DNA from: Sphingobacterium composti
GTDB taxonomy: Bacteria; Bacteroidota; Bacteroidia; Sphingobacteriales; Sphingobacteriaceae
DNA: 64,000 nucleotides
Assembly: GCF_009829075.1 (NCBI RefSeq)
Contig: NZ_WUQZ01000003.1
Span: forward strand, 1-64,000
Direction: 5' to 3'
The notes beneath the pieces are model-generated. The model saw only the letters and a list, made by a program, of their open reading frames with translations, was not told the origin of the DNA and did no database searches. The position numbers and the translations under genes were made by a program. Below are positions 816-21,137 of the stretch, in pieces. Position 1 is the first letter of the stretch, and every line of letters begins with the position of its first letter.

Positions 816-3773
816 ATGATAAGGTATATTTTCGTGCCAGCTGTATTGTTGTTCCTAACGCTACTCCCGAGCCCAAAATTACATGCTTCGAATTCAACAC
901 ATAGTTTGATTGTTGTACAACAAGATACTACTGAAGAAAAGGAAGTAAGTATTGAGGCTATTAAAAAAATTAACACTTTAAACACTAAGAAATTAACTAT
1001 TGATACTGTTAATTTATCTGTTATTAAAGCCAATCCTTATGTTCATATCGCCGATTACTTAAAAGGACAAGCATCAGGTGTTCTTGTTCAATCTCCTACA
1101 GCAGAGCCAGGGAGTTATCAAAATATTGTTATACGAGGATTATCGCGTCCTCAGTTAAGTAATAATGACATAAACAGCAATATAGCAGCTGTATATGTAA
1201 ACGGTATACCTATGGCTTTAGATCATAATTTCTCTAAGGACTTACAACGTTATGATTTAACAAGATTAGGTGCTTCAACAGATTATTATTCCTCAATTGA
1301 TTTGTCAACTGTGCAATCGATTGAGATTATTAAAGACCCCGTTCGGTTGAGTGAATTAGGCCCATTAGCCGCTAATGGTGCTATATGGATTACTACATAT
1401 GGGGGTTTATCAAGTACACGTTTGATAAGTATAAATTCTTATATGGGATTTAATACTAAACCGCAAATTACTCCTGTGAATGCCGATTTTGAGAATAGAT
1501 TTAGAAGACAGTTTTACAATAGATATCCTTCTACTGATCCAAATGTCGAGTCACGTTATCCAGGTTATTTATCAGATTCTACTAATGTTAATTATTATGG
1601 TCCTGCAAATTGGATGGATAGATATTTTTCAAATTCAATGCTATCAAATTTGGATTTAAGTATCAAGGGAGGAACGAGTAGGGCAAATTTCGGTTTTATG
1701 GCGGGATTTACAAATAATGCATCTGCCTCGGATGATACCCAAATGAAGAAGTATAACGTTCTATTGAATATTAATATGCTTCCTTTTGAATGGATGAATA
1801 TATCCACTTATCTAAACGGTCGACGTAGCTCAAGAGATAGAAATAGAAATATTAGAGATAGATTATTAGAAATGGCTTATTATCCAGATTTATCAACTCC
1901 AATATCTCCTAATACGCAAGTTTATTCAGATTTTATTAGTCGTTATGATCGGACAGTATTAGATGATAACGTTATTAATAATTTTCAAGGTAATATTAAG
2001 CTTGATGCAGATATAATCGAAGGATTGAAGTTTACCACAAATTTTATGATAGATTATAGCGAAGGCAGGAGAGACTTATTCTATCCAAAAGATTTGATGG
2101 AAACGATTAATTATCAGTCTGGATTCATCAATTATTCACAACGTTACATCTTTTCAAATGCATTGGCTTATAATTTCAATACAGGAAAAAATGAATTTAA
2201 GTTTAAAGTAGGTACAGATTATCAGCAGGATCTATATCGTTTTTATTTTGCTCGCGCATTTGATGGGCCGAATGATTATATCAAATTGAATATTGTACAA
2301 AGTGATCCTAATAAAGGTGATTATTTGTTACCTAGAGGTGATTTAAAAGTTTCAAGATGGAATGGTCAGGAGAGTTATCATATGCAGTCATTTTACGGTA
2401 CAGCAAATTATATATATGACGATACTTTTGATTTCAAAGCTGTAATCCGATGGGATGGAGCATCAACTATTCAGAAGGATAGTCGTTGGATGCTTACTCC
2501 AGCATTCTCCGCTTCATGGAACCTTGCCAAAACATTGGAATCTAAAGAAGATTTCAAGGTGCGCGCATCTTATGGAAGAATTGCTTTGCCAAATTATAAT
2601 AGTAGGTACGCAATGGGTCCGCAATATAGCGGCAGTTCACTTGGTATCCTGGAGGATCCTACAATTTCTTCTTATTATGGTTTCGTAGGGCTAACTAGAA
2701 GTTATAAAAATGGCTGGATTGGCTATAACTTGAATTGGGCTTATAGTGACAAATATGAATTGGCGATAGAGAAATCACTATTAGATTCCAGAATTAATAC
2801 CATGCTAGCTTTTTACCAAACATATGATAGAAATCAAATCATTGGAGTTCCAGTACCAGGTGAGTTTGGATTCTCTTCTCAATTCAAAAATGGATTAGAA
2901 GTTAAAAATATGGGGTTTGATGCTAACTTAAATATTAAAGTGTTAGACACTAAAGAAGATCGTTTAAGTTGGACTACTTCACTTAATTTCAACTTTAATA
3001 AAAATGAATTAACAAAACTTCCAGATAATCTTAATGAACTTATTATTGGTGATAGAATTCTAAAAGTCGGCCATGCAATCGATAGCTATTGGCTATATGA
3101 AAATTTGGGAATATATAATAATGCAGGAGAGATTCCAACTTTGGGCGGTAGTCTGTTAAGTGTTGATGGCTTGGAATTTACTGTCGGAGATGCTATTTGG
3201 AAAGATCAAGATGGTAATGGAATTATTAATACGGATGATAAAGTTATTAAAGGCAGATCAACACCTAATTTCTTCGGAGGATTTAATAACTCATTTTCTT
3301 ATAAAAAATTTCAACTTGATTTGGGGATTATATATGCTTTAGGACAAAAGGTATTAAATCAAAGAGCATCCAATCGGTACAATTTTATTAGCAATGAATC
3401 AAGCAATAGCATATTTGCTGTACGTGAGATATTCAATTGGCAGAATGATATTGATTTAGATAAATATCCTATTTACAATGTCTGGAGTAATACCAACCCA
3501 TATCGTTTGGATCAAGATCTATTTTTGGAAAATGCATCATACCTCAAACTACGATCTGTTACGCTAGGATACGATCTGAGCAACTTAGGAGTTGTTTCTC
3601 GGTTGATTCCAACCGTGAGGAGAGCATATGTGTATGTTAATGGTAACAACTTATTCACATTAACTCCATTTTCAGGAAATGATCCCGAGTTGATAAATTT
3701 CAATGGATATTATGATGCATATGGGATGCAGTTTTCAAGATCATTCACCTTAGGAATTAAACTAGACTTATAA
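816..3773 (+). CDS. SusC/RagA-type TonB-dependent outer-membrane transporter, short form without N-terminal carboxypeptidase-like domain
   Basis: The protein has 985 residues, with a signal peptide at about 1-24. A plug domain covers roughly 55-200, with motifs IVIRGLS, AAVYVNGIPM and IEIIKDP. A beta-barrel follows, ending in the typical SusC tail with PFSGNDPEL and the terminal residues FTLGIKLDL. The family forms a TonB-powered channel for glycans or peptides in the outer membrane, lidded by a SusD lipoprotein, and the SusD gene follows after 7 bases. Unlike the second SusC of this operon (7063-10212), it has no CarboxypepD_reg-like domain: the plug follows soon after the signal sequence. 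The usual IYGSRGANGV plug motif is replaced by a divergent version (LGPLAANGAIWITT). It is the first gene of the operon. The family call is firm; the substrate is unknown. Confidence 0.9.
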   Translation: MIRYIFVPAVLLFLTLLPSPKLHASNSTHSLIVVQQDTTEEKEVSIEAIKKINTLNTKKLTIDTVNLSVIKANPYVHIADYLKGQASGVLVQSPTAEPGSYQNIVIRGLSRPQLSNNDINSNIAAVYVNGIPMALDHNFSKDLQRYDLTRLGASTDYYSSIDLSTVQSIEIIKDPVRLSELGPLAANGAIWITTYGGLSSTRLISINSYMGFNTKPQITPVNADFENRFRRQFYNRYPSTDPNVESRYPGYLSDSTNVNYYGPANWMDRYFSNSMLSNLDLSIKGGTSRANFGFMAGFTNNASASDDTQMKKYNVLLNINMLPFEWMNISTYLNGRRSSRDRNRNIRDRLLEMAYYPDLSTPISPNTQVYSDFISRYDRTVLDDNVINNFQGNIKLDADIIEGLKFTTNFMIDYSEGRRDLFYPKDLMETINYQSGFINYSQRYIFSNALAYNFNTGKNEFKFKVGTDYQQDLYRFYFARAFDGPNDYIKLNIVQSDPNKGDYLLPRGDLKVSRWNGQESYHMQSFYGTANYIYDDTFDFKAVIRWDGASTIQKDSRWMLTPAFSASWNLAKTLESKEDFKVRASYGRIALPNYNSRYAMGPQYSGSSLGILEDPTISSYYGFVGLTRSYKNGWIGYNLNWAYSDKYELAIEKSLLDSRINTMLAFYQTYDRNQIIGVPVPGEFGFSSQFKNGLEVKNMGFDANLNIKVLDTKEDRLSWTTSLNFNFNKNELTKLPDNLNELIIGDRILKVGHAIDSYWLYENLGIYNNAGEIPTLGGSLLSVDGLEFTVGDAIWKDQDGNGIINTDDKVIKGRSTPNFFGGFNNSFSYKKFQLDLGIIYALGQKVLNQRASNRYNFISNESSNSIFAVREIFNWQNDIDLDKYPIYNVWSNTNPYRLDQDLFLENASYLKLRSVTLGYDLSNLGVVSRLIPTVRRAYVYVNGNNLFTLTPFSGNDPELINFNGYYDAYGMQFSRSFTLGIKLDL

Positions 3774-3780
3774 GATTAAT

Positions 3781-5322
3781 ATGTTAACCATGTTTAAATA
3801 TAAAGGAATTAAGTATGTGCTTCTACTGTTTGCTATTGGTATAGCATCATGTTCAAAGCAACTAGATTCTCCGAGTCGTGAAGTAGCGGGAGAGGAGCTT
3901 CATTGGAGAAGTATATCAGAAACTAAAGCAGGACTATTGGGAATATATGGTTTGATGCGCTCAGCCATGATTACGAATAATGGTCATTGGGTATATGGGG
4001 AAATACGAGGAGGAGACTTCTCAATATATAATAGAGCCGATTTGAAGGCAATTAAAGAAGGGAAGTTAAATGCAGCGTTTAATATTACGAAAAGTTTATC
4101 AAACTGGCAGCGGTTTTATGCTGTCGTAAATGCTGCATCTGTATTTATTGAAAAAGCTCCGCAGGTGCTAGAACATGACAATAGATACACAGATGTCAAT
4201 TTAAAGATGGATATCGTGCAAGCTCGTGCATTGCGTGCATTCGCCTATTATTATATGGCAAGAACATGGGGAGATGTCCCATTGATTACTAAGTCTTATG
4301 ATAATGGAAGTTTTCCTGAGGTTGGGGTAGCTTCTCAACAGGATGTATTGAATTACGCAGAGAAAGAACTATTAGAGAGTGTAGAAACGCTACCTTATCA
4401 ATACGGTACTGATAATAGTTTATACTATAATGAAAGCAGATGGCTATGGCAAAATATCTTAATTACTAAAATAGGAGCATATTCAATATTAGCTCATATT
4501 GCTGCTCTCCAAGGAAGATACGATAAAGTAGAAGCCTACACTCGATTTTTTATGGATAATTATTCGAAATCCAATGTTAAAAAATTGACGCAGATCCATG
4601 GAACAGGAGGTGGATCTGAAGCGTTAACGGGATTCTATGGCGTATTTTCATATAATTATGGTCATGGACAATTATTGAATTTTGCAGCACCTTATTTATT
4701 AGGTGAGGCGACCAACTCCGGTCATATTGAGCAGCTTACGTTAGCTCAACCACTTGTAAACAAGGAATTTCCCGATATATATGTCGAGAAGGATTCTATA
4801 TCTGTAATCTTTGATGATTTGAATGATCGTAGATTCGGATTGGACACGGTCAATGGACTTTATCGAGAGAATTATTTTATCAACTTCCAAAATGATATTC
4901 CAATTTTCAAAAAAATAAACATTATCCGTGATGGATCAACAAATGGGAATTTAGCCCTCTTTGGATCTAATCTAGTTTTCTCACGCTATGAAGAAATGGT
5001 TCTTTTGCGTGCAGAAGCACTTGAAGTACTTAATGATCGAAATGGAGCTCGAAGTTTGTTGAATGAAATAAGATCGATGCGTGGTCTACGAACTTTTACT
5101 GTATTATCTCCAGAGCCAATATTAGAAGAAATCTTTAAAGAAAGAAGACGTGAATTAATGGGAGAAGGGTGGCTATTTTTTGATCTGGTGCGCTATCATA
5201 AGATCAAGCAAAATAATCCCAAGTTTATGGATTTAATAAATAGAGGAGGAATTTATTGGCCAATTGCATCAGAAATTTTAAGTAGGAATTCAATGTTGAA
5301 ACAAAATTCATACTGGAACTAA
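3781..5322 (+). CDS. SusD/RagB-like substrate-binding lipoprotein
   Basis: The protein has 513 residues with a lipoprotein signal (lipobox ending IASC). The SusD-typical region near residues 115-160 is seen as ARALRAFAYYYMARTWGDVP. The C-terminal half has the conserved SusD block: RYEEMVLLRAEAL, LLNEIRSMRGL and the ERRRELMGEGWLFFDLVR motif. It should sit on the cell surface as the binding lid of the preceding SusC. A second in-frame ATG at 3790 could be the true start, and the signal peptide works from either. Cognate pairing is inferred from adjacency. Confidence 0.92.
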   Translation: MLTMFKYKGIKYVLLLFAIGIASCSKQLDSPSREVAGEELHWRSISETKAGLLGIYGLMRSAMITNNGHWVYGEIRGGDFSIYNRADLKAIKEGKLNAAFNITKSLSNWQRFYAVVNAASVFIEKAPQVLEHDNRYTDVNLKMDIVQARALRAFAYYYMARTWGDVPLITKSYDNGSFPEVGVASQQDVLNYAEKELLESVETLPYQYGTDNSLYYNESRWLWQNILITKIGAYSILAHIAALQGRYDKVEAYTRFFMDNYSKSNVKKLTQIHGTGGGSEALTGFYGVFSYNYGHGQLLNFAAPYLLGEATNSGHIEQLTLAQPLVNKEFPDIYVEKDSISVIFDDLNDRRFGLDTVNGLYRENYFINFQNDIPIFKKINIIRDGSTNGNLALFGSNLVFSRYEEMVLLRAEALEVLNDRNGARSLLNEIRSMRGLRTFTVLSPEPILEEIFKERRRELMGEGWLFFDLVRYHKIKQNNPKFMDLINRGGIYWPIASEILSRNSMLKQNSYWN

Positions 5323-5336
5323 TAATCAACAAAGTT

Positions 5337-6011
5337 ATGAAAAGTATACGCTTGCTTATTTTTCTCTTCCTAGGATTAGGCTTATCATTCTCTTGTGAGA
5401 AGGGAAATACATATTATACAGATTTTTCAAAGGATAATATTTCATTTGACGGTACTATATATGAGTATTTAGTAAACAAACCCGGACAATATGATTCTTT
5501 GATTTTATTACTTGAAATTCTTCCTGAATTGAAAGACAAATTAAGTAATCCAAATGATACACTGTCATTTTTTGTCACCGATAACCGATCTTTTGCTTTA
5601 GCAATTAAAAATCTTAATACGAAGCTGATAGAGGCTAAAAAGGATCCCTTGTATTTAGAAGATCTTGACAAAAAAATCATGGATACATTGGCTTATAGAT
5701 ATTTAATTGAAGATCTAATAGGTATAAATGATCTAAAGGAGCACAAGGATGGTATTAAGATCATTAGCGCGAAGTATGATTACGAAATGCATGGACAATA
5801 TCGTGTATTGACCGCGTCAGGACTAGTTGGGAAAGGGGATCAACAGATAGTATATAGTGATGTAAATAATTCTATATACCGTAGATATTGGCAAAATGCG
5901 AACACAAGGTCTGTGAATTTGAAAGCAAAAAATGGGTACATCCACACACTTACTCCTCAGCATGAATTTGCATTTGGTAAGCTAATCGAATATTTCACTA
6001 AAGACAAATAG
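5337..6011 (+). CDS. Fasciclin (FAS1)-domain lipoprotein
   Basis: The protein has 224 residues, with a lipoprotein signal ending LSFSC near residue 20. The rest resembles one FAS1 domain. An early segment reads SLILLLEILPELKDKL, followed by LSFFVTDNRSFALAI, which matches the TlFvPTnaAF-type H1 region. Near the end, LKAKNGYIHTL matches the H2 region (NGvIHvid). FAS1 domains act in adhesion or protein-protein contact. In other Sus-type loci of this phylum FAS1 lipoproteins accompany SusC/SusD, as here. A second FAS1 lipoprotein takes the same place after the second SusC/SusD pair (11806-12525). The domain call rests on H1/H2-like motifs and is fairly sure; ligand unknown. Confidence 0.75.
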   Translation: MKSIRLLIFLFLGLGLSFSCEKGNTYYTDFSKDNISFDGTIYEYLVNKPGQYDSLILLLEILPELKDKLSNPNDTLSFFVTDNRSFALAIKNLNTKLIEAKKDPLYLEDLDKKIMDTLAYRYLIEDLIGINDLKEHKDGIKIISAKYDYEMHGQYRVLTASGLVGKGDQQIVYSDVNNSIYRRYWQNANTRSVNLKAKNGYIHTLTPQHEFAFGKLIEYFTKDK

Positions 6012-6012
6012 C

Positions 6013-7050
6013 ATGAAAAGACTTAAATCAATATATACAGTTATTTCTATTCACTTAGTAGGAATATTACTTATTATGTCGTGTGATACATTTATTCCTG
6101 ATGATATCGATGCGTTGGAAGATGGGTTAAGCTTCAGTACACGAGAGTTTACGCCTTATATGGGAAGAACCACGGTATATGATAATTCATTATCAGCAAC
6201 TAATAAAACGTCATTACCTCTTAGTTTTAAAATTCTTGATATAAAGGATGTGGATGGGGAATCTGTACCGAATATATTGGATAGAAAATTTCCTGTAAGT
6301 ATATGGATAGATTCTTATACAGGATTAGAAAAATCTATAGAGGAGATAGCTAAGAAGAGAAAAACAGAATACCGACCTGCAATCGAAATACAAGAGAAAT
6401 CAGGAAATTTTATTTTTTGGAACACCACTTCTTTTTTGGATCTACAAACCAGTCCTTATGATGGATATTCTATGGATATCAGCATAAGTAATTCAGGAGG
6501 AAGTATTATTGATCGTGGGATAAAGTTAAAACCTTTCAAGGCGAGACCTTATGAACCCTCACGATATGATCAGAATACAGGTTTGGCTGCAGGAACTTAT
6601 GTTTATCCGAAATCCGTTTATAATATTCAAGGTGAAAAATCAGGGTTTATTGAGACAGACATTAGAATAAATTTTGTTAAAGATTACGACAATAAAACAC
6701 CAGGAAATACTTTGACTATAAGTGCAGTCGATTCCTTATATCGTCCTATAGATATTAAAAAATTTAACTCAACAAAATGGAACAGTCTAGTACATGGTTT
6801 CAACCATCGTTTTGTAGGTCCAAAGGTGGTTTACGATGTAATGTTTCCAATGCCTCTTGTGCCCCTGAAAACGCCATACACAAACTCTGATGGAACGCTA
6901 GCTTCCATAACGTTGTCGTATAACCGATTGAATGGTTTTGGGAGGCAAGAAGATGCGTTTTTAGATTTTGATTTTGCGATTTATGAAGAGGGACATTGGG
7001 AAATCGTCTTTAGGTTCGCTGGTGAATCACCAAAATTTGATAATGATTAA
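6013..7050 (+). CDS. Lipoprotein of unknown function (DUF5007-like)
   Basis: The protein has 345 residues. Its lipobox (LLIMSC) is followed by an acidic stretch (DTFIPDDIDALED), a composition seen in exported surface lipoproteins. The body is rich in beta-strand-like segments and has no catalytic motif I recognise. Size, position after a FAS1 lipoprotein and general character fit the DUF5007 family, but I assign that from memory and cannot verify it. It starts one base after the preceding stop codon, so translation is probably coupled. It closes the first SusC-SusD-FAS1-X module and likely serves as an accessory surface protein. Confidence 0.6.
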   Translation: MKRLKSIYTVISIHLVGILLIMSCDTFIPDDIDALEDGLSFSTREFTPYMGRTTVYDNSLSATNKTSLPLSFKILDIKDVDGESVPNILDRKFPVSIWIDSYTGLEKSIEEIAKKRKTEYRPAIEIQEKSGNFIFWNTTSFLDLQTSPYDGYSMDISISNSGGSIIDRGIKLKPFKARPYEPSRYDQNTGLAAGTYVYPKSVYNIQGEKSGFIETDIRINFVKDYDNKTPGNTLTISAVDSLYRPIDIKKFNSTKWNSLVHGFNHRFVGPKVVYDVMFPMPLVPLKTPYTNSDGTLASITLSYNRLNGFGRQEDAFLDFDFAIYEEGHWEIVFRFAGESPKFDND

Positions 7051-7062
7051 AAGAAACTGACA

Positions 7063-10000
7063 ATGAAATATATATATAATCTAATAGTAATACTATTCCT
7101 TTGCATTGGTCAAGCCTACAGTCAGAATGATGCCACAATAACAGGTACTGTGGTAGATATGGATGGTAATGGCATTTCTTCAGTTACAATCAAAGCTATT
7201 CCTGGAAATAAGTCCTTAGGCTCTACCGACGCAAAAGGTAATTTCAGTGTCAAAGTACCAGCAGGAACTAAAAGTCTTTCTTTTAATTCAATGGGATTTT
7301 TGTCTAGATCAGTTCAAATTACGGCGAATACGAAAACCCTAAATATTGACTTGGAACCAAATAGTACAGAAATACAGGAAGTAACTATTGCCTACGCTGC
7401 GCGGAAAGCAGAGACACTTACAGGTTCTGCTGTTGTTATCAGTGGTAAGGATATTAAAGATGTACCAGCAGCAAACTTTACTGACTTATTGCAGGGGCGT
7501 GTTGTGGGATTAAATGTGCAACAAAATAATGGTACTCCAGGTATGCGTGGATCTATGTCCATTCGTGGTTTGAACTCATCAACTATTTCAAATTCAGGAG
7601 GAGATCCTTTTCTAACAGCAACTTCGCCATTATTTGTAATCGATGGTGTGCCTATTGAAGATAATCAAAGTTTCCAATATGGTTTTCAATCTCCAGGGCC
7701 TGGTATTAGTCCGATATCCATGATTCCATCAGAAGATATAGAAACAATTGTTGTGTTGAAAGATGCGCAAGCCACCGCACTTTACGGATCTCGTGGAGCA
7801 TATGGTGTAATTTTGGTAACCACCAAGAGGGGTAATTCAAATATTCCTCAGATCAATTATAGTCATAATTCTTTTCTGTCTACTGTGCCTAAGTTAAAGC
7901 CAATATTGGGGGGAGCTGATGAGAATAGATTTCGTGTAAATCAAATCCTCCAAAATGACACATCTTATTTTAAGGCTTTGCAATTAATTAATGACAACCC
8001 ATTTTTAGCAGATTCATTAAGTGCTTTTTTCAATAATTCAACAGATTGGCACTCTTATTTTTATGCCAATAGGTATAATATGGAGCATCATGTTAGTATT
8101 CAGGGAGGTACAGATAAATTCAATTACAAGGTAGCTCCGTCCTATTTCAAAAATAATGGTATCATTAGGAATACAGGATTTACGCGTTACAATGTCTCTA
8201 CTAATATGCGTTATCGCCCATCCGATGGGTTTGAGGTCAATGCATATGTAAATACAGGTTTAGCTAAAAATAGTACAGGGTCTGGAAATGCATTTCAACA
8301 AGCTGGTATTGCGAGTTCTGTAAATACGACTTCCTTACTCCCTCCTCCGTCGATATATACTGGAAGTTTCGACGCTATGGCGGCAAGCTCTGTTGTCAAT
8401 GACAATAAAACAGGAAATTTTACTGGAAATGTGGAACTTAGGTATCAAATTTTTCAGGGATTAAGAGTATCATCCACGTTCAAGTATCAATTTGATTTAG
8501 CTTCATCCAATAAGTTTATTCCAGAGATACTTAATTCAGGTCAAACGGGACTTACCATGTATGACGATAATAGAAGAACTGTCTATAATCGAAATATGAT
8601 ACAATATGATGCCAAATTATTTGGTAGTGAGAAGCATAGTATTAATGCCTCAGTCTTCAATGAAGTGAACACCTCTGTATTTAAAGCCCAAGGGATGTTA
8701 ATGACAGGTACAGGAAGTGACCAGATACAAGTAGGTCTGTCCTCTAATACAAGAAACTCGAGAGGCGGATATTTTGATAATTTGGGCGAATGGAAATCTT
8801 TAGGTTATGCTGCCCAAGCAACGTATATTTTTGATAATAAATATATTGTTGATGGGGCTTATAGGCTAGATGGTACCTCTACATCTGGAGCAAAGAGCCC
8901 ATTTACGCACAATCCAACTGCGGGTTTGCGTTGGAATTTCTTTAAAGAATCGTGGCTTGAAAATTCGTTTTTTTCGGACGGAAGTATGCGTATAAGCTGG
9001 GGTAAAAATATTTATCCTACAGGCTCTGTTTATGATGTATATGGACGCTACTATGTAGCAGGTAAAAAATACAATAATGAACCTGTCGTGGAATTGGATA
9101 TGGCTAAAATCCCAAACATAGATATGACCCCAATTATCAATACGCAATGGAGTGGGGGTATTAGTCTATCGATGTTTCAAAATAGACTTTCTGTGAACTA
9201 TGAGACGTATTATAAAGAAGGGAAAAACGAATTGGCAGAGATCCCCTTGGCAAATATGAACGCTTTTGATAAAATCATGGAAAATGAAAGGGCTATCGTT
9301 AATAGAGGGCACGAATTCTCTATGAACTTCAATCCTCAAATGAAGAATAATGACTGGAGACTCTCCATGTATGCAAACTTAGCTATAAATAGAGATTATC
9401 AGGCAAGATTGGCAAATAATGAAAGGCAAGAATTGTTTGAATCTGAAGGGGATGATGGTAAGTACATGATGATATTGCAGCGACTAGGAAGGAATGCTTT
9501 TTCTAACGTTTTGTTTCATTACAAGGGAGTGTATCAGTCTGATGAAGATGTGCCTGTAAATCCTGCGACAGGAATGAAATATAGGGTGTCTAACAATGTG
9601 GGCGATCAATATTTTTTCAGAGCCGGTGATCCTATTTTTACAGATTTGAATGGTGATTATATTCTAGATAATAGAGATTTGGTAATTGTTGGAAATGCAC
9701 GTCCTATGATGACAGGAGGATTTGGATTTAATATCGTATATAAAGCATTCCAATTTTCACCTAACTTCTCTTATACATTGAAAAGAGATATTATTAATCG
9801 TGCTACAGCAGATCTTTATAGAAATTACTATTCTCCTACTGGTTGGCATGCCTTAAGTCCTATTCAAGGTAATTATTACACGCGACAAAATCCAAATGCA
9901 GAATATCCTAATCCGCTAGATTTTAGACGAGCAAATACAATAGATCCGTATCGGTATAATTCTACGCTTTTCCAAGAAGAAGGCTCTTATTTGAAGTTTA

Positions 10001-10212: not shown

Positions 10213-10224
10213 TAAAGAAACGAA

Positions 10225-11784: not shown

Positions 11785-11805
11785 TTTACAGTAAAGATTA
11801 TAAAC

Positions 11806-12525
11806 ATGAAAAATTACATTTTATTGTTTCTGGTGTCACTTTTATCACTAATGACGATTATCTCCTGCGAAAAAAGTGCATATATAGATTCTGGGGTATT
11901 TACAAATAATTACCCAGGGAATCATTATGATTATCTAAAATCAAGACCTGAGTTGTTTGATTCCTTGACTAAGATTATTGATCTAGCAGGTCTAAAAGAC
12001 GTTGTGAATAAACCTAACACTACCTTTTTTGTACCATCGGATTATACTATTCGAAAATCTGTAGAACAACTCAATCAGGTATTATATATCGCGGGTCGTG
12101 ATACGGTTAAGAATTTAAGTGAGGTTAACCCTTTGGTGTGGAAGGAGTTTTTGCAAATCTACCTATTTAATGGTGTGCGTCTGTTAAATGATTATCCACA
12201 ATTGGATACAAATAAGATGGATGTTTTCCCTGGACAAGGATTTGTGTCTATTGGCAATAATAATATGAATATAGGTGTGCTGTATAATGACGTAACAAAT
12301 GAGCGGGATGGCGTCAAGCAAACTGTTCAGTATGCAGGATATAGACAATTATACCTGTCATCTGTAGACATCACAAATCTATTTGGACAAATGATTAATG
12401 CGCCGGTGGCTACTTCCAATTTAAAGACGAGCAATGGGGTGCTACATGTACTGAATTTTACAAAGCATAGTTTTGGATTTTCATCGGATTATTTTGCAGG
12501 TCGGGCATTTAGTATGATGAATTAA
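11806..12525 (+). CDS. Fasciclin (FAS1)-domain lipoprotein
   Basis: The protein has 239 residues with a lipobox (TIISC near residue 21). The FAS1-like domain spans about 40-225: LFDSLTKIIDLAGLKDVV, then NTTFFVPSDYTIRKSV (H1-like), and near the end NLKTSNGVLHVLNF (H2-like; the NGVLHV motif is a good match). It occupies the same place in the second SusC/SusD module as the FAS1 lipoprotein at 5337-6011 does in the first. It likely acts as an adhesion or scaffold part of the surface complex. The domain call is well supported by the H2 motif. Confidence 0.82.
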   Translation: MKNYILLFLVSLLSLMTIISCEKSAYIDSGVFTNNYPGNHYDYLKSRPELFDSLTKIIDLAGLKDVVNKPNTTFFVPSDYTIRKSVEQLNQVLYIAGRDTVKNLSEVNPLVWKEFLQIYLFNGVRLLNDYPQLDTNKMDVFPGQGFVSIGNNNMNIGVLYNDVTNERDGVKQTVQYAGYRQLYLSSVDITNLFGQMINAPVATSNLKTSNGVLHVLNFTKHSFGFSSDYFAGRAFSMMN

Positions 12526-12538
12526 TAATAGTAAAGAC

Positions 12539-14128
12539 ATGAAAATTACGATAAATCAAAATAATAAATTGTGGATACTGTTGGTAATTCTACTCACCAG
12601 TTCGTGTAAGGATCTTCCTATTGGTGAAAATCCATATGATGGTGGGCAACCTCCATTGGGAATCAAGTTTGAGTTTTTGAACCGTAAACTTGATGCGGTA
12701 CGTCCGAACGATAATGTGACTGTAAATATTAGAGGGATTGGGAGTCAGACACTAGCATCATTGACAGCATTTATAAATGAACAAAAAGCAGAGGTTATAG
12801 CTGTCTCTGACTCAACTATGACGTTGAAAGTTCCAGAAAAAGTGAGTTCTGGAATCGTTAAACTCTTGGTAGATAATCAAGTGTTTTATGGGCCAAGAGT
12901 GCCTATAGAGGGAAAAACCAAAGTCGATGCTTTTTTCTCTACAGGTAGAGGATTTAATGGCACGGTGTATTCTTTGATGTTACATAATAGCAATTATTAT
13001 GTAGGTGGAAGTTTCAGAAATTATAAAAATGAAGCTGAAGTAAACAAAACATTTCGAAACGGATTACATATCATTAATCAGAATGGAGATAGTCAAGGGA
13101 ATTCATTTGGGCGTGGGGTAGAGTTTGGTCTAGTCAGGGGAATAAAGCAATTAAGTGATGGAAGATTTATAGTTAATGGAGACTTCTCTGAATTTAACAA
13201 AAAAGAGGCTGCAGGCGTAACAATTTTAAACTCGAATGGAGAAGTTAATACCATGGTAGTGGATGTCGTTAACTCCGATCCATCTAAGCCTGCTGATGGT
13301 AAAGATACTGTCTCCATTTTCAATGGTCAATTTCTTGGTACGGTTGCAAATGTCTATCCCGTAAAAGATAAAGAACAGATAATAGCCGTAGGAAATTTCA
13401 ACTTCCATTCACAGATTGATTATCGGTTTTCAACTAAAAATATTAGAGCATACAACTATACTCGTGTGGGCAATGTAGCAAGAGTATCACTAAATGGAAA
13501 ATTAGACTCTGCTTTCCAATTTAATAATGTAGGATTAAATGGTGCAATGGTAGGAAGTGCACAATTGTCTAATGGTAAGATTATTATTGTTGGCGGATTC
13601 ACTTCTTATAATAATCAAGCAGCACGTAATATCGTGGTTATAAATGAAAACGGAACTATAGATCAAACTTTTGCTGGATCGGGCGCAAATAATTGGATCG
13701 AATCTATTCACTATAATCCTACCACGAAGAAGATAGGTTTAGCTGGACGATTCACAGAGTACAACGGTCAAAAAGTTAATGGTGCAGTTATATTAAATGA
13801 AGACGGAAGCATTGATAATACATTTAAACTCGGAGACACAGAAGGTAAATTTCCCAATTTCATTTATTTACTAAATAATGGGAAAGTCTTTGTTGCGGGA
13901 TCTTTTAACAAATATATGGGTATAAATAGGAATCCATTTTTGATACTTGAAAAGGATGGAGAAGCAATTCAGGACTATAATAATCTAGGAGGATTTTCTG
14001 GATTTGTATATAGTGCCATCGAAACTACATCAAGTGAACGTTTCCCAGCGCTTCTTATAGGAGGTTTATTCACCACCATAGAAGGAATAAACGCAGGATG
14101 CATCATGCGCCTTGAGATTAAAAACTAA
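12539..14128 (+). CDS. Lipoprotein with TIG-like N-terminal domain and delta-60-like repeats (DUF5008-like)
   Basis: The protein has 529 residues with lipobox LLTSSC. After a short linker, about residues 40-125 form a TIG/IPT-like beta domain (VRPNDNVTVNIRGIG, MTLKVPEKVSSGIVKLLVD). From about 150 to the end, short repeats recur: GRFIVNGDFSEFN, GKIIIVGGFTSYNN, KIGLAGRFTEYNG, GKVFVAGSFNKYMG. Each is followed by a line such as INENGTIDQTF. These are delta-60-type repeats, expected to fold as a beta-propeller. Propellers of this kind usually bind and do not catalyse. The N-terminal part resembles DUF5008 as I remember that family. It probably serves as a surface-exposed recognition module of the second SusC/SusD system. 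Confidence 0.75.
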   Translation: MKITINQNNKLWILLVILLTSSCKDLPIGENPYDGGQPPLGIKFEFLNRKLDAVRPNDNVTVNIRGIGSQTLASLTAFINEQKAEVIAVSDSTMTLKVPEKVSSGIVKLLVDNQVFYGPRVPIEGKTKVDAFFSTGRGFNGTVYSLMLHNSNYYVGGSFRNYKNEAEVNKTFRNGLHIINQNGDSQGNSFGRGVEFGLVRGIKQLSDGRFIVNGDFSEFNKKEAAGVTILNSNGEVNTMVVDVVNSDPSKPADGKDTVSIFNGQFLGTVANVYPVKDKEQIIAVGNFNFHSQIDYRFSTKNIRAYNYTRVGNVARVSLNGKLDSAFQFNNVGLNGAMVGSAQLSNGKIIIVGGFTSYNNQAARNIVVINENGTIDQTFAGSGANNWIESIHYNPTTKKIGLAGRFTEYNGQKVNGAVILNEDGSIDNTFKLGDTEGKFPNFIYLLNNGKVFVAGSFNKYMGINRNPFLILEKDGEAIQDYNNLGGFSGFVYSAIETTSSERFPALLIGGLFTTIEGINAGCIMRLEIKN

Positions 14129-14148
14129 TACTTATTAAGCAGATAGTC

Positions 14149-15894
14149 ATGATAATAGCAAATAAATATTTCATCAAATGCTTCCTTCTAGGGGTAGCAC
14201 TCTCTTTGGGGTTAATTTCATGTAATGAAGATTTTAAAAACATCCTTAAAGAAGATTACGGAACTACTAACGTAAATCAAACTAAAAGCAAGGTTCTTTT
14301 GGTTGTAGTAGATGGTGTTCGGGGGCAGGCTATTACCGATATAGATACACTCAACTTACGTTTTATAGCACGAAATTCACTCTATTCGCACAACTCTTTT
14401 GGAGATAATAAAGTCGAAGAATATACCCGTGAAGTAGGATTAGCCAATATTATGACAGGGGTCAAATTTGATAAACACGGTATTGATGGGAATAAATTGG
14501 AAGCCATTAAACTAGATAAAGCTCCAACGTTTATAAATAGACTTAAATCAAATATCGCTGATTTTACAAGTGAGGCTTATACGAGTTCGGAGGATGTCCA
14601 AAACTTCTTATTTAAACAGGATGTGAAGGAAAGTAAATTGCTAAATTCAGATACAGAAGTTGTGAATCAAGTGGTTGAAGCTTTGAAAAAAACGAATTCA
14701 AGTTTGGTAGTAGCACATTTGAAAAATCCCAATACAGTAGGAAAACAATCTTCGTTCGAGTCAAATAATCCAAGCTATGTCAAATCTATTGTTGATCTGG
14801 ATAAGCAAATAAAAGCCATGATTGACGTATTGAGTACTAGACCTGATTACAATAATGAAAAGTGGTTGGTTGTCTTAACATCATCTATAGGTGGAGGGAT
14901 TGCTAATGATTTAACCAGTGATGACAAAACAGCTTTTGGAGATTCAAAACAAAATACATTCACTTATTTCTATTCTCCTCAATTTGGACGTCGCTTTATT
15001 GTAAAACCAAATACGAATAACATTCCATTTCAAGGAACTGCAATGCGTGTGAATAATAGAGATGAACAAAGAAATGCAACCTCAGCTCGTCTTTTAGATG
15101 AAACAAAATTAAATATAACTGAAAAGGATAATGTAACTATAACCTTTTTCTATAAGCAAACGTCCTTAAACTGGTGGTTTTGGTGGACTCCAATGATTCA
15201 AAAATGGCGCGGATGGAATAATGGTAGTGTAGCTGGATATATTATTTATAACGCCTATGATGGTAAAATTGGCATAGACTGGTTTAAAGATAAAAGAATG
15301 GTGTCTGCGAACACCATAAGTGATGGCCCCCGTTGGTATGCAATAACAATAGTTTTCGATAGGACAGCCAAGAAGATTAGAATGTTTATTGATGGAAAAC
15401 TGTCAGCCGAGCAAGATCTCGAACCCGTCAATTTGAGCAATATAGAACCATTTGTAATAGGAAGAAGTATGTCCGCTCATGATAATAATGATTCGGATAT
15501 ATTATTGTGTAATCTGCAGTTTTATAATGTAGCAATGCCAAATGAAGATGTCGAGAAATATGCAAAATTAGCGGTAGTGGATGAGGAAAGTTCTCCATAT
15601 TATGAAAATTTAGTTGGTTATTGGCCATTTTATGGTGATGAAGGAAAATCTGAGGTCGAAGATGTTACGGGAAGAGCTGGAAATTTGACCCTATTTAATA
15701 AAATTGAATGGTATAATTTCTCTGATCCTGCAGGTTATGTCTTACCAACATTTAATGAGGATACATACCGTATTGTTCCGAATACCGTTGATATTTCTAT
15801 GGCTATCATGCAGTGGTATGGTTTAATTCCAAATAGTAGTTGGGGGCTTGAAAGTAAAGCATGGAGTTTCCCATACAAAGTTTTTGAGTTTTAA
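14149..15894 (+). CDS. Alkaline-phosphatase-fold lipoprotein with LamG-like domain, catalytic residues apparently lost
   Basis: The protein has 581 residues with lipobox GLISC. Residues 48-250 follow the type I phosphodiesterase/alkaline-phosphatase fold: LLVVVDGVRG with Asp55, then IMTGVKFDKHGI where active family members have the (V)TG...HGI motif. The nucleophile Thr position appears to be Arg94. The metal-binding PDxxGH motif reads PNTVGK (194-199) and the SDHG motif reads SSIG (245-248). Only Asp55 is kept, so I expect no hydrolase activity. About residues 300-475 form a LamG/concanavalin-like sandwich, followed by a C-terminal region resembling DUF4983. A similar protein lies two genes downstream (17943-19754). 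Likely role: carbohydrate or glycoconjugate binding at the cell surface. The motif alignment was made by eye. Confidence 0.72.
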   Translation: MIIANKYFIKCFLLGVALSLGLISCNEDFKNILKEDYGTTNVNQTKSKVLLVVVDGVRGQAITDIDTLNLRFIARNSLYSHNSFGDNKVEEYTREVGLANIMTGVKFDKHGIDGNKLEAIKLDKAPTFINRLKSNIADFTSEAYTSSEDVQNFLFKQDVKESKLLNSDTEVVNQVVEALKKTNSSLVVAHLKNPNTVGKQSSFESNNPSYVKSIVDLDKQIKAMIDVLSTRPDYNNEKWLVVLTSSIGGGIANDLTSDDKTAFGDSKQNTFTYFYSPQFGRRFIVKPNTNNIPFQGTAMRVNNRDEQRNATSARLLDETKLNITEKDNVTITFFYKQTSLNWWFWWTPMIQKWRGWNNGSVAGYIIYNAYDGKIGIDWFKDKRMVSANTISDGPRWYAITIVFDRTAKKIRMFIDGKLSAEQDLEPVNLSNIEPFVIGRSMSAHDNNDSDILLCNLQFYNVAMPNEDVEKYAKLAVVDEESSPYYENLVGYWPFYGDEGKSEVEDVTGRAGNLTLFNKIEWYNFSDPAGYVLPTFNEDTYRIVPNTVDISMAIMQWYGLIPNSSWGLESKAWSFPYKVFEF

Positions 15895-15917
15895 TAAGGC
15901 AATTTAATAAGACTATT

Positions 15918-17930
15918 ATGAATAGATATATAAAATTTTTAGGATTATCATTTGCGGTATTTTTGACTATTGCCTGTAAAAAGGCGAGCTATGATTTTCA
16001 AGACGGATGGCAGAAGGGAGAAGAGCAGGGAATCAATCCGCAAGATAGCAGCTTGACATACGTAGATAGATCGAAATACGATAAGGCAAGGCTATTTCCA
16101 GGACTGGTTGGAGAAACTGTAAAGCGTGTTCAAGACACAAGTGTAACGTTAAATTTGGACTATCGATATATTAGCTATTATGATTTGAAAGTTCAAGAAG
16201 TACCACAACCCATTTTTAGTGTAGGATTATACGCACCAGCAGGGGAAAATATTAAAATTGTAGTTCCAGAAGGTATCAATGGACTTACCATTCAAATTGG
16301 GCCACATGGGTATAATTTGGATAACGACAATGAGCCTATCACGAATCGTGATGATGTTGTAAGTACTTCGAAGGCTCTTTTTCCGGGGACGAATTATATA
16401 CGAAATCCATATGGAGGATTAATTTGGATTCTTTCGACAATTGCTATCAAAAATACTGTCTCACTTACCTTTAGCAATGTTGTACGTACATCGGATTATA
16501 TCATGGATGTTTCCAATCAGGAGCAATGGTTAAGGGATGTCGAAGCAAACGATGTTCCTTGGCTAGAATTGCGTTCTAAGCGTGTTATTTTTACTGTTCC
16601 TCGTTCTTTAGTTTTACAATATAAAAGTGAGCTAAATGTAAAAGAGGCTTTAACCAAGTGGAAACAAATTTATGAAGAGGATTTCTATAAATGGATGGGA
16701 TTGACTGCTAATAATACAGATCCTAAGAACAGCTTTCCAGAGCTTCCAGAGCGGGCGGTATTAGATATACAATTGTTGAAGCCCTACTACTCTCTACATG
16801 GGTCTCCTTGGGTAGCCTATATGGATAAATATTGGATGACTCAATTGGCTTCAGGAGACAAGTTATTAAAGGATTCGATAAGCACTATTATGCCTGTATA
16901 TCATGCTTCGGGTCATAATTATCAGATGTGGCGCGCCTGGAATTGGGGGGCACTCCAAGAAGTTACGAGTAATTTATTCGCATTTAAGGCAGCCAAGCGT
17001 GTAGGGATTCCAATTACTACTGTTTCTGATGAGGTAAGACGAATTATTATAAAATCATTATTATATGCAGAGAGAAACACAAAGAAAGATTTCAATAATT
17101 CTTTTAATGATGGAGAAGATGGCTACCATAGGTTAACACCTTTCCTTCAAATTTTCGAAAAAGTCAAAGGTAAGAATGGTGAGTCAGGTTGGGATTTTAT
17201 GACCAAATTATATACAGATGCACGGAATACCAATATTGCATTTTTCGTTGACGCAGCGAAGATAGATTATTTCTACCGCTCCTTATGTGCATTTACTGGT
17301 CAAGATTATGGTCAATTTATGGATGCATGGGGAATTAAAGTTAGTCTGTCAGCGAGAAATAGTATGCGTATAGCTTTTCCGCCGTTACAAAAGGCTATAT
17401 GGACTTATAATCCTCTAACAGGTACAGGTGGAGATGAAGCGATTGCTGCGGAATATGATTTAAGGGCATCGGATTTCAAGTGGTCCACAAATATGATTAC
17501 GGCGACTAATGAATCAATAGGTAAGATAGAAGCGTTGTTTGATGGCCAATCTAACACGTACTGGCATACATGTTGGGAAAATTGTTCAAAAAACACTACA
17601 GCATCGGAATCTGAGCCTACTTATTTGGACCTAGATATGCAAGAGGTTAAGACTTTTAGAGGAGTTTATTTACAAAACAGACAAGGGGCAACTTATAGGA
17701 ACAAAGCTATTGTTTATACAAAAGATGCGGAAGATGGGGCTTGGACAAAACAAGGAGAACTTATTCTTGCTGAAGATAGAGATGATCCGACTAGGGATGC
17801 TCGGAAAGAGTTGAAATTTTCACAACTTATTCAAGCGCGTTATATCAGATTTGCTTTCACAGAAAATAATTTTGATGGTAATGCTCATACAGCGATTGCA
17901 GAAGCAGGAGCATTCTATTCACCAAATTAA
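15918..17930 (+). CDS. M60-like (enhancin-type) lipoprotein with discoidin domain; HExxH motif altered to HASGH
   Basis: The protein has 670 residues with lipobox LTIAC. The middle part (about 100-450) matches the peptidase M60 family. The metal-binding region reads YHASGHNYQMW, then GALQEVTSNLF. His329, His333 and the distant Glu348 are in place, but the catalytic Glu of HExxH is Ala330 (codon gct). The usual M60 motif is HExGH. The C-terminal 160 residues resemble an F5/8 type C (discoidin) carbohydrate-binding domain: IEALFDGQSNTYWHT, PTYLDLDMQEV, ARYIRFAFTENN. Active M60 enzymes cleave O-glycosylated proteins such as mucins. This copy should bind zinc and substrate but not cleave. It lies between the two degenerate phosphatase-fold proteins. 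Confidence 0.8.
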   Translation: MNRYIKFLGLSFAVFLTIACKKASYDFQDGWQKGEEQGINPQDSSLTYVDRSKYDKARLFPGLVGETVKRVQDTSVTLNLDYRYISYYDLKVQEVPQPIFSVGLYAPAGENIKIVVPEGINGLTIQIGPHGYNLDNDNEPITNRDDVVSTSKALFPGTNYIRNPYGGLIWILSTIAIKNTVSLTFSNVVRTSDYIMDVSNQEQWLRDVEANDVPWLELRSKRVIFTVPRSLVLQYKSELNVKEALTKWKQIYEEDFYKWMGLTANNTDPKNSFPELPERAVLDIQLLKPYYSLHGSPWVAYMDKYWMTQLASGDKLLKDSISTIMPVYHASGHNYQMWRAWNWGALQEVTSNLFAFKAAKRVGIPITTVSDEVRRIIIKSLLYAERNTKKDFNNSFNDGEDGYHRLTPFLQIFEKVKGKNGESGWDFMTKLYTDARNTNIAFFVDAAKIDYFYRSLCAFTGQDYGQFMDAWGIKVSLSARNSMRIAFPPLQKAIWTYNPLTGTGGDEAIAAEYDLRASDFKWSTNMITATNESIGKIEALFDGQSNTYWHTCWENCSKNTTASESEPTYLDLDMQEVKTFRGVYLQNRQGATYRNKAIVYTKDAEDGAWTKQGELILAEDRDDPTRDARKELKFSQLIQARYIRFAFTENNFDGNAHTAIAEAGAFYSPN

Positions 17931-17942
17931 TACGAAAGAGTA

Positions 17943-19754
17943 ATGAAACAATTAATTATAAAAAATCGTGTCTGTTCAATTTTGTTTTTGATAACAGTTT
18001 TTCTATTGACTTCATGTACAAAGTTTCCCAATCCTCCTGCGCAAAACGAGGAATATACTGAAATTGTCGATACAACGGTGAAGAGAAAAGTGTTGGTAAT
18101 CGCCGTAGATGGTTTGGTGGGGAGCCAAATAAAAGCATATAAGCCTGCGAATATTGCAAAATTGATGGAGCATGCTAAATATTCCTACGAGACAAAATCG
18201 GATGATAACACGAATCCATATGCGAGCTGGGCTACTTTAGCAACAGGATATAAATCCTATAACCATAAGATTACACAAGAATCCTTTCAAGTGGATATAG
18301 GCACGGGTAAGGAGCATGCAGATTATGAATTAACTCCTTCAATAATGCATAGATTGGAAAGAGCAGATTCTAAACTGCGAACTGCAAGTGTAATTCGAAA
18401 TACAACAATGAATGCAAAGCTATTTGCCGATGCAGATACTAATCGTTTAGCAAACAGTGATGCGCAGGCAGAGCAATTATTATTGAATATTGTAAAACAG
18501 GAAAAAATTGACTTTATTTTTGGACAATTTAGTGGTTTAGTCGCGGCGGGACAGAATGGCGGATTCGTGGTGTCGAATAACAATTATAAATCTTCATTGG
18601 ATCAAATTGACAAGTATATTGGCAATGTTGTCTCAGCGGTTGAGAGTAGAGAAACTTATGCAAAGGAAAAATGGCTAATAATTATTTGTTCGCCGCATGG
18701 AGGGACTTCGTCAGGTAAATTTGGAGGAACTACTTTAGACGAAATAAACACTTTTAGCCTTTACTATAATAGAAGTTTCCTTCCTTTGGAATTACAGTCC
18801 GAATCAATGTCTTACATGCATGCTAATGGATACTTCCCTGGGGTCTACCACCCAATTGATGATGTTAATAATGAAAGGACAAGATTATTCTCAAGAATAG
18901 GCGTGCATGCACAATCTCCATCAGGCGTAGCAAGTAATATTTTCAATGCTTCCATGAATTCATCAAAATCTGTAAGCTATGAATTTAAAATTTCCTTACA
19001 GAATGAGGGTGTATGGAATAATGGGTCTTCTTATAAAAAGGCATCGTTATTAGGAAAAGATTTGGATGACCGCGTGGAGACAAAAGGTTGGTTTTTATAT
19101 GGAGGTCAAAATGGTGACGATTTTAAGTTAGTATTTCAAAATGGAACTAAACAAGATTCGGTTGAGTTTAATAAAGCCAATAAGGGCAATGATTGGCGTC
19201 ATTTTGTGTTCACATTTAAGCAATTGTCCTCTAATAGTACTTCTGTAGAGGTTATTGAAAATGGTCTGTCATTAGCGATTCAGACTATAAATATGGGATT
19301 AGCAGAGTTTGAAAATCAAGATCCTTTAACAATAGGATTTACGCCTATATCTCAACTATACGCAATTCCAAACTTTTATATAAGCAATTTTAGAGTATGG
19401 AATAAAGCATTAAGTTTGGAAGAAATGAAAAACATCGGGTGTAAAAACACGATTGAGAATAATGATCCATTATTTGGGAATTTAGTTGCATACTACCGTT
19501 ATTTTACTGAAGATAAAAAATGGCTGAATAGTATTAACAATAATGCTCCTGATTTGATAGTTTCAGGAGATGCGACAAGCAGAATTACACAATTCTACAC
19601 ATTTTGTGATCTTCCTGTAGGATCTACTTATTTACAGACAGTAGATGTGATTCCACAAATATATTATTGGTTTGATATGGAGCTCCCAGGAGATAATAAA
19701 CTGGAAGGTAAGGAGTTTTTGAATAGATTTTTAGAAGAATTTTATAAGGACTAA
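17943..19754 (+). CDS. Second alkaline-phosphatase-fold lipoprotein with LamG-like domain, most metal ligands lost
   Basis: The protein has 603 residues with lipobox LLTSC. The order is the same as in 14149-15894. The phosphatase-like fold (about 48-290) has LVIAVDGLVG (Asp56), WATLATGYKSYNHKI and ICSPHGG. Relative to active members, the nucleophile position appears to be Pro92, PDxxGH reads LVAAGQ (199-204) and SDHG reads SPHG (250-253). The His of the last motif is therefore kept while the Asp residues are lost. A LamG-like sandwich follows (about 320-480), then a C-terminal DUF4983-like part. It differs from its paralogue in which residues decayed, suggesting separate loss or an old shared loss. 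A binding role is inferred. Confidence 0.7.
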   Translation: MKQLIIKNRVCSILFLITVFLLTSCTKFPNPPAQNEEYTEIVDTTVKRKVLVIAVDGLVGSQIKAYKPANIAKLMEHAKYSYETKSDDNTNPYASWATLATGYKSYNHKITQESFQVDIGTGKEHADYELTPSIMHRLERADSKLRTASVIRNTTMNAKLFADADTNRLANSDAQAEQLLLNIVKQEKIDFIFGQFSGLVAAGQNGGFVVSNNNYKSSLDQIDKYIGNVVSAVESRETYAKEKWLIIICSPHGGTSSGKFGGTTLDEINTFSLYYNRSFLPLELQSESMSYMHANGYFPGVYHPIDDVNNERTRLFSRIGVHAQSPSGVASNIFNASMNSSKSVSYEFKISLQNEGVWNNGSSYKKASLLGKDLDDRVETKGWFLYGGQNGDDFKLVFQNGTKQDSVEFNKANKGNDWRHFVFTFKQLSSNSTSVEVIENGLSLAIQTINMGLAEFENQDPLTIGFTPISQLYAIPNFYISNFRVWNKALSLEEMKNIGCKNTIENNDPLFGNLVAYYRYFTEDKKWLNSINNNAPDLIVSGDATSRITQFYTFCDLPVGSTYLQTVDVIPQIYYWFDMELPGDNKLEGKEFLNRFLEEFYKD

Positions 19755-19758
19755 TATT

Positions 19759-21069
19759 ATGAAAACGTTTAGTATAAGTTTAATATGTGTAATTGGTCTC
19801 TTTGTGATGACAAGTTGTACAGAAAAAGAATTGACTTTACCTGCATCGATTGTTGAGCAAGAAGATGGTGTTATAGATCTTATAGCCAAGCCTATAGATG
19901 TTGAATTTGTTGCGGAGTACGATTATGGATACACTATAAAGTGGCCTACATTAAGCGAAAAAATCAAAAAAATGGTTGTTACTTATACAGATAAGGATAA
20001 CTCAACCAAAAAATTTGAATTCACTAATTTTATGAAGGATACATCATTCTTTGTGCAATCTTATGATGAATATGCATTTAATGTTCAAGCATTTGGTGAT
20101 GACGGTAAAGAGTCGCGTGTTGCGGTTATTAAAGCTTGGAACAAAGATTTGTATGCTAGACAATTACTTAATGAAGCACAGATCAGTCAATTTGGAAAAT
20201 TCATTAGGTTGCGTTGGTCAAATGCTCTGTTGAAAGAATTAAGAATGACTATTAAAAACTCAATTGTAAACCAAACAGCCGAACTTAAAGGGTTGAGTGG
20301 CGAACAATTAATTCCAATTAAAGATGATGGAACTGCTGATTTATCTATTTCCTTGTTAGATAAATCTACTAATCTTGAGGGAACTAAAACCTTTGCCTTT
20401 AGACCTCAAGGAATTAATTTGTCGAGGGCAGATAAGTCTAAATGGACAATTTATTATGATTCGCCATTCAATGAACAAGCATGGTGGCATATTGGTGAAG
20501 CATTTGACGGCGAATATACATTAAACGCGGATCTTGATGGTACAGGAAAGTTAAATGCTGTCGCTATACCAGAGGTGAGTAAATTAAATTCGGATAGACG
20601 TATTAGAACATTGTATTTTACTTTTACGCAAAAAACATTGAATGCGGATTGGTCGTGGACTACTTTTAATCCATCTAATAGGAGACCAGCTGGCCCTTAT
20701 GATAATATCTTAGTACAAAAGTTGACTTATGTATTTAAAGGACAAACTGGAAATAGTGACAGATCTCATGATGCAGTTTTTCCAGATGCACTTCGTATAT
20801 ATGGTATTAAAGCTGATGGTACAGAAATACTGGTAGCGAGAGTATATGATGTAGCAAATAAATTCATTAAGTATCAAGATTCTGATCCGAATTATATTAA
20901 ATCTATAGCTGTAGATATACCTCAAGTCACTTTTGATGGTGCGACTTTTAGAGGGATTAAAACAGAGTTTCTCACAAATTCTCTTCCTAATAACACGGAT
21001 AGTTGGGATCCTCAAAATAATATAGGCGTAGGGGAAATATTTGTAAGGGGAATAAAAGTTTCAATATAG
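19759..21069 (+). CDS. Lipoprotein with FN3-like and discoidin-like domains, unknown function
   Basis: The protein has 436 residues with lipobox FVMTSC. About residues 45-130 look like a fibronectin III-type fold (DYGYTIKWPTLSEKIKKMVV, YAFNVQAFGDDGKESRV), similar to DUF4959-type N-terminal domains as I remember them. The C-terminal half has strands reminiscent of discoidin-like domains (WWHIGEAFDGEY; a closing IGVGEIFVRGIKVSI). No catalytic motif is seen. It is the last gene of the operon: it starts 4 bases after the previous stop and a strong terminator follows. A surface binding role is likely by context. Confidence 0.55.
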   Translation: MKTFSISLICVIGLFVMTSCTEKELTLPASIVEQEDGVIDLIAKPIDVEFVAEYDYGYTIKWPTLSEKIKKMVVTYTDKDNSTKKFEFTNFMKDTSFFVQSYDEYAFNVQAFGDDGKESRVAVIKAWNKDLYARQLLNEAQISQFGKFIRLRWSNALLKELRMTIKNSIVNQTAELKGLSGEQLIPIKDDGTADLSISLLDKSTNLEGTKTFAFRPQGINLSRADKSKWTIYYDSPFNEQAWWHIGEAFDGEYTLNADLDGTGKLNAVAIPEVSKLNSDRRIRTLYFTFTQKTLNADWSWTTFNPSNRRPAGPYDNILVQKLTYVFKGQTGNSDRSHDAVFPDALRIYGIKADGTEILVARVYDVANKFIKYQDSDPNYIKSIAVDIPQVTFDGATFRGIKTEFLTNSLPNNTDSWDPQNNIGVGEIFVRGIKVSI

Positions 21070-21101: not shown

Positions 21102-21137
21102 TTAACCCCCAAAGTTCAAAACTATTGGGGGTTTTTT
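21102..21137 (+). terminator. Terminator of the SusC/SusD lipoprotein operon
   Basis: AACCCCCAA and TTGGGGGTT form a 9-bp stem with a 13-base loop, followed by a T tract, 33 bases after the stop of the last operon gene. Confidence 0.87.

Follow-up and report, generated by a model that had tools for sequence, protein, structure and literature searches.

A Conserved SusC/SusD Operon of Sphingobacterium composti Whose Enzyme Folds Lack Catalytic Residues

Overall Organization of the Operon

The first 64,000 nucleotides of contig NZ_WUQZ01000003.1 of Sphingobacterium composti (assembly GCF_009829075.1), the stretch referred to here as the window, contain an operon at positions 816–21069 that comprises 12 open reading frames (ORFs), all on the + strand and separated by intergenic gaps of 7, 14, 1, 12, 12, 21, 13, 20, 23, 12, and 4 bp. 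The operon encodes two SusC proteins, two SusD proteins, and eight further lipoproteins, with gene 12 in last position. ORF positions and profile matches agree with the original prediction, made from the sequence alone, of 12 same-strand genes with gaps of 1–23 bases, two SusC, two SusD, and eight lipobox proteins. A lipobox-type Cys is present at residue 19–25 in each of the eight accessory proteins and also in both SusD proteins (10/10). With two adjacent SusC–SusD pairs and lipobox-bearing SusD and accessory proteins, for which surface exposure is predicted, the operon has the composition of a SusCD system. It departs from a classical polysaccharide utilization locus (PUL) in that no CAZyme family is found in the 12 operon genes and no dedicated regulator is adjacent to them in the window.

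The first gene, SusC1 (816–3773; TIGR04056, 408 bits against a cut-off of 368 bits; PF07715), encodes a TonB-dependent transporter without an N-terminal CarboxypepD_reg-like domain and is followed by the SusD1 lipoprotein (3781–5322; PF07980/PF14322), a homologue of PDB 3hdx (493 bits), a fasciclin-like lipoprotein, FAS1a (5337–6011), and a DUF5007 lipoprotein (6013–7050; PF16398, 234 bits). The second transporter, SusC2 (7063–10212; TIGR04056, 596 bits; PF13715), contains a CarboxypepD_reg-like domain and is followed by the SusD2 lipoprotein (10225–11784; PF07980), a homologue of PDB 3iv0 (357 bits), the lipoprotein FAS1b (11806–12525; PF02469, over cut-off), and a lipoprotein with a DUF5008 domain and a DUF5122 β-propeller (12539–14128; PF16400, PF17164). 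FAS1a alone has no Pfam match; it is assigned as a paralogue of gene 7 (FAS1b) by cross-matching of the two family profiles. Because each SusC/SusD pair precedes a FAS1-like lipoprotein and then a second lipoprotein (DUF5007 in one case, DUF5008 and the DUF5122 propeller in the other), this arrangement suggests that the first eight genes are a duplicated four-gene module. A lone single module of the SusC-SusD-FAS1-DUF5007-like type is found elsewhere in the window genome, on contig C78.

The remaining genes encode AP1 (14149–15894), a pseudo-M60 metallopeptidase (15918–17930), AP2 (17943–19754), and the gene 12 lipoprotein (19759–21069). AP1 is a putative pseudo-phosphodiesterase of the alkaline phosphatase superfamily with a LamG-like/DUF4983 part (sub-threshold matches to PF01663, PF01676, and PF16356), and AP2 is a putative pseudo-enzyme of the nucleotide pyrophosphatase/phosphodiesterase (NPP) fold fused to LamG (PF01663, PF13385). 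Gene 12 is fast-evolving; the window copy has no Pfam match, the family profile hits the discoidin region of the M60 proteins, and a discoidin-like (F5/8 type C) C-terminal domain is present in relatives.

Loss of Catalytic Residues in Three Enzyme Folds

The M60 protein (PF13402, 84 bits; PF17291, PF00754) retains the M60 fold and the zinc ligands H329, H333, and E348, as judged by alignment, model, and Foldseek. The structures nearest to the model, which has a predicted local distance difference test (pLDDT) score of 85, are ZmpB, IMPa, AM0627, and BT4244. Its C-terminal part is nearest to CBM32 domains, and model comparison shows a resemblance to galactose-binding CBM32. The protein therefore has the fold, zinc-ligand positions, and discoidin/CBM32 domain of the M60 O-glycopeptidases (AM0627, BT4244, the BcM60 enzymes, and ZmpB), whereas the HExGH motif of those enzymes is replaced by HASGH (H329-A330-S-G-H333; Ala codon GCT), leaving no catalytic glutamate. 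This natural Glu-to-Ala change is equivalent to AM0627 E326A and BcM60K E664A, which are engineered variants whose structures were solved with bound glycopeptide (PMC13355702).

AP1 and AP2 are paralogues, as shown by the cross-matching of their profiles. The N-terminal part of the AP2 model (pLDDT 85) matches ENPP/NPP structures (Foldseek E 8e-10), and the LamG part matches a pentraxin. When AP2 is profile-aligned to an NPP structure, the only retained residues are D56 and the His of an SxHG motif (equivalents of D54 and H258), with the last His unlocated; the equivalents of the nucleophile, D210, H214, and D257 are replaced. We take this numbering and the accompanying metal-ligand list to be those of Xanthomonas NPP. 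AP2 thus shares its N-terminal fold with Xanthomonas NPP and ENPP but differs from them in its fused LamG part and in the replacement of the nucleophile and most metal ligands, falling short of the Thr/Ser nucleophile and six metal ligands of an NPP or alkaline phosphatase enzyme. In AP1, the SDHG motif is replaced (TSSxGG and similar) in 25/25 sequences compared, and SDHG together with most other ligands is missing from every AP1 (25 sequences) and AP2 (27 sequences) examined. By these alignments, AP1 and AP2 appear to be ancient pseudoenzymes, NPP-like folds fused to LamG.

The original prediction had held that the operon contains no active enzyme and had named, as one result that would count against it, catalytically competent sites in at least three of the proteins. 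Residue-level loss is instead seen in all three enzyme folds (AP1, M60, and AP2), and no such set of sites was found. These proteins could instead be cryptic enzymes that act through a non-canonical site, making the operon an ordinary enzyme-bearing PUL. The M60 and AP2 folds are intact and well modelled, the window M60 protein retains its three zinc ligands, and AP2 still has D56 and one His. However, the M60 glutamate activates the water molecule and its removal is the standard means of inactivation, AP2 has other residues in place of its nucleophile and of three or more metal ligands, and the zinc site of Bacteroidales M60 copies is wholly lost. We consider cryptic activity quite unlikely.

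Conservation of the Gene Order among Relatives

A search for the same gene order in other Sphingobacteriaceae, as the original prediction had proposed, located the core order SusC1-SusD1-FAS1a-DUF5007-SusC2-SusD2-FAS1b-propeller-AP1-M60-AP2 in 23 further family loci: those of the twenty relatives first examined and of G301, G310, and G224 (G-handles denote genomes of the genus or family of the window organism, G000 being the window genome). A phylum-wide search with DUF5007 returned few genomes and no clear Bacteroides match; with the PDB SusD 3iv0 as the query, the same eleven genes were found in Bacteroides faecis, B. finegoldii, B. acidifaciens, a Dysgonamonadaceae bacterium, and Sunxiuqinia indica. 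At least 29 loci besides that of the window have this gene order, a grouping beyond chance, and the operon is not a peculiarity of this organism, since the core is present both in family relatives and in Bacteroidales. Identity across the 11-gene core is ~25–68% within the family and in Bacteroidales. Gene 12 is divergent or undetected in several of the family loci. In G277 (L043/L044), AP1 and the propeller gene form an in-frame fusion, and no open frame was found for AP1 in G102 (L045).

The M60 motif was read in 37 family relatives, with operon context checked for a subset. HExGH is present in 36 of them, the exception being the sister operon G122:C15, which has HLIGH. In the Bacteroidales loci, the motif is gone and the zinc site is lost entirely, and in G224 the sequence is HELGR. 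On a phylogeny built from five of the other operon proteins, no fewer than two changes are required to account for loss of the M60 motif, since branches with Shimodaira–Hasegawa-like approximate likelihood ratio test (SH-aLRT) values of at least 95 force them. M60 catalysis is therefore judged to have disappeared on two or more occasions and in different ways, with the genes apparently remaining intact and constrained. An operon that was enzyme-free from the start can be rejected; nearly all family relatives keep an intact M60 motif, so the complete absence of enzymes must have arisen secondarily. G122 carries two operon copies, C15 with the dead M60 and C14 with an intact HELGH. The window genome also encodes a separate M60 protein with an intact HEVGH (L105, G000:C25:8065-9651) that does not adjoin SusCD genes. 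A genome-contig scan with the window M60 protein as the query gave no match.

Promoter, Operator, and Genomic Setting

As originally predicted, one candidate promoter and one terminator frame the operon. The candidate promoter, TTTG(716–719)-N19-TAACCTTG(739–746), is a Bacteroidetes-type −33/−7 pair on the + strand at 716–746, and the −7 element (TAnnNTTG) can be aligned 5′ of SusC1 in the majority of ten loci compared. The intrinsic terminator, a + strand stem-loop followed by a T run (~21104–21137; −15.7 kcal/mol), is absent from the output of a consensus terminator scanner. Directly upstream of the operon lies the 5S rRNA gene (155–266, + strand; Rfam RF00001, 73 bits) that ends an rRNA operon; five or more operon loci in the genus directly follow a 5S rRNA gene (window, G187:C72, G122:C14, G122:C15, and G214:C23). 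The genes 3′ of the operon in the window are housekeeping genes. No PUL-type CAZyme, ExbB, or regulator was found among the other window ORFs scanned, in which the sole CAZyme-family match is a peptidoglycan-type glucosaminidase at 53668.

In 22 family loci checked 5′ of SusC1 (the window and G224 counted apart), two CAANCGNTT boxes 21–22 bp apart are present in 15/22 and one box in 4/22, against an expectation of 0.02 boxes per 450 bp. We take the form of this tandem operator to resemble that of LacI-family operators. No box was found at this position in the window, G122:C15, G298, or G209; the 19 related loci with one or two boxes include L108, L039, and L041. The tandem pair occurs once in the window genome (G000:C78:115973-116003), before the four-gene SusC-SusD-FAS1-DUF5007-like module. 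The operator is not specific to the 12-gene operon: in other genomes it is also found ahead of different SusC-SusD genes and therefore marks a small regulon. G292 has, at C1:1316317-1316893, an array of 21-bp direct repeats with GCAATCGGTT inside the repeat unit.

That the window and its sister both lack the M60 glutamate and the common tandem operator, with an intact M60 motif in the second G122 copy, could indicate that the operon is being lost in this lineage and that the catalytic change was an early degenerative step. Decay of this kind is, however, very unlikely given the twelve intact ORFs, the promoter −7 element, and the terminator. In addition, M60 identity between the window and the sister (62%) is in line with that of neighbouring genes (52–68%), which speaks against decay, and the Bacteroidales copies with a dead M60 are equally intact.

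Comparison with Arabinogalactan-Type Loci

In the Bacteroides loci, a hybrid two-component regulator (HTCS) and divergent GH43 genes adjoin the operon, and ExbB is downstream in four Bacteroidales loci. The family member G224 has the same HTCS and GH43 layout. The original statement that there is no regulator holds within the operon and the scanned window ORFs, but not for relatives, which have an adjacent HTCS or the common upstream operator.

The SusD2 proteins of B. faecis and two related genomes, whose loci show the 11-gene order, are 99% identical to PDB 3iv0. In B. thetaiotaomicron, for which the comparison was made through published annotations and the sequences of Bacteroides relatives, BT0262-90 (PUL5) is listed with arabinogalactan as its primary substrate (PMC3243724) and BT0268 is its SusC (PMC5061871, PMC6874557). 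Published annotations of BT0269-BT0279 fit the operon order: SusD, hypothetical, DUF5007, SusD, and DUF5124, and then carbohydrate-binding protein, alkaline phosphatase family protein, and hypothetical (PMC10434189). Judged through the Bacteroides relatives, the locus from BT0268 onward shares the 11-gene core in order with the window. The differences are the upstream HTCS and divergent GH43 genes and the downstream ExbB of the Bacteroides locus, neighbours that the window lacks, and the extent of M60 loss, which covers the zinc site in Bacteroides and the glutamate only in the window.

Domains of the FAS1, discoidin, LamG, and propeller types serve in adhesion in other organisms, and there are ten lipoproteins for two transporters. 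These lipoproteins could therefore anchor the cell to a glycoprotein surface, with import secondary. Such a role is unlikely, however, as the operon is led by two complete SusCD pairs and the homologous B. thetaiotaomicron locus lies in a nutrient PUL that responds to arabinogalactan, a response reported for that species only (PMC3243724, PMC5061871).

Discussion

The operon probably encodes a surface system, powered by TonB, that captures and imports a large glycoconjugate, either O-glycosylated or rich in galactose, with enzyme folds acting as ligand-binding arms. In such a system, the two SusC barrels with their SusD lids would import the ligand, and the eight further lipoproteins (two FAS1 proteins, the β-propeller, DUF5007, and discoidin-type proteins, two LamG-bearing pseudo-NPPs, and the pseudo-M60), presumably located at the surface and in complex with the transporters, would recruit and hold it. 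The pseudo-M60, with its fold and three zinc ligands but without the catalytic glutamate, would bind a glycopeptide that an active M60 would cut, and cleavage would be supplied by enzymes encoded elsewhere. By analogy with B. thetaiotaomicron, the most likely ligand would be arabinogalactan-protein or a similar conjugate that is O-glycosylated or galactose-rich, an assignment that is tentative for the window's organism. Both earlier proposals fit, although the mechanism itself is conjectural: processing of ligands elsewhere would accord with the separate GH43 genes beside the operon in Bacteroides and G224, and recruitment of enzyme folds as binding modules with the three folds that lack catalytic residues.

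Several observations weigh against this interpretation. GH43 and HTCS genes next to the core in Bacteroides and G224 are absent from the scanned ORFs of the window. Within the family, co-occurrence of the operon with a GH43 arabinogalactan enzyme was not supported: genomes with the enzyme are scattered, and in G122, the nearest relative, no homologue passed the threshold applied. Since there is no clear association between the operon and a GH43 homologue and the window lacks these neighbours, the arabinogalactan ligand may not carry over. In addition, as far as can be read from the sequence, a different residue may serve in catalysis.

Similar to the operon described here, the levan and dextran utilisomes of B. 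thetaiotaomicron combine SusCD with additional surface lipoproteins from one locus, but each of their SusCD units has a single glycoside hydrolase and a single binding protein (PMC7618045). The present system, a putative complex, combines two SusCD pairs with eight accessory lipoproteins, and a complete catalytic site is absent from all of these. No prior account of its pseudoenzyme content was found in a limited search, which is not proof of novelty; literature on the DUF families and locus tags gave table entries and promoter use only.

Surface lipoproteins of obscure role are encoded in many PULs. In the present case, an entire set has kept its order between gut Bacteroides and the window's family. 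That the gene set is kept in order despite dead enzyme folds suggests that binding, not cleavage, is what selection keeps. We tentatively propose, as a possibility, that enzyme-free utilisomes are widespread, with a pseudo-protease and two pseudo-phosphodiesterases as proteoglycan-binding arms and the M60 O-glycopeptidase repeatedly and independently turned from cutter to binder. The intact-motif and dead M60 copies of G122 offer a natural test of cutter versus binder, and the comparison points to candidate binding proteins in the well-studied arabinogalactan locus of B. thetaiotaomicron.

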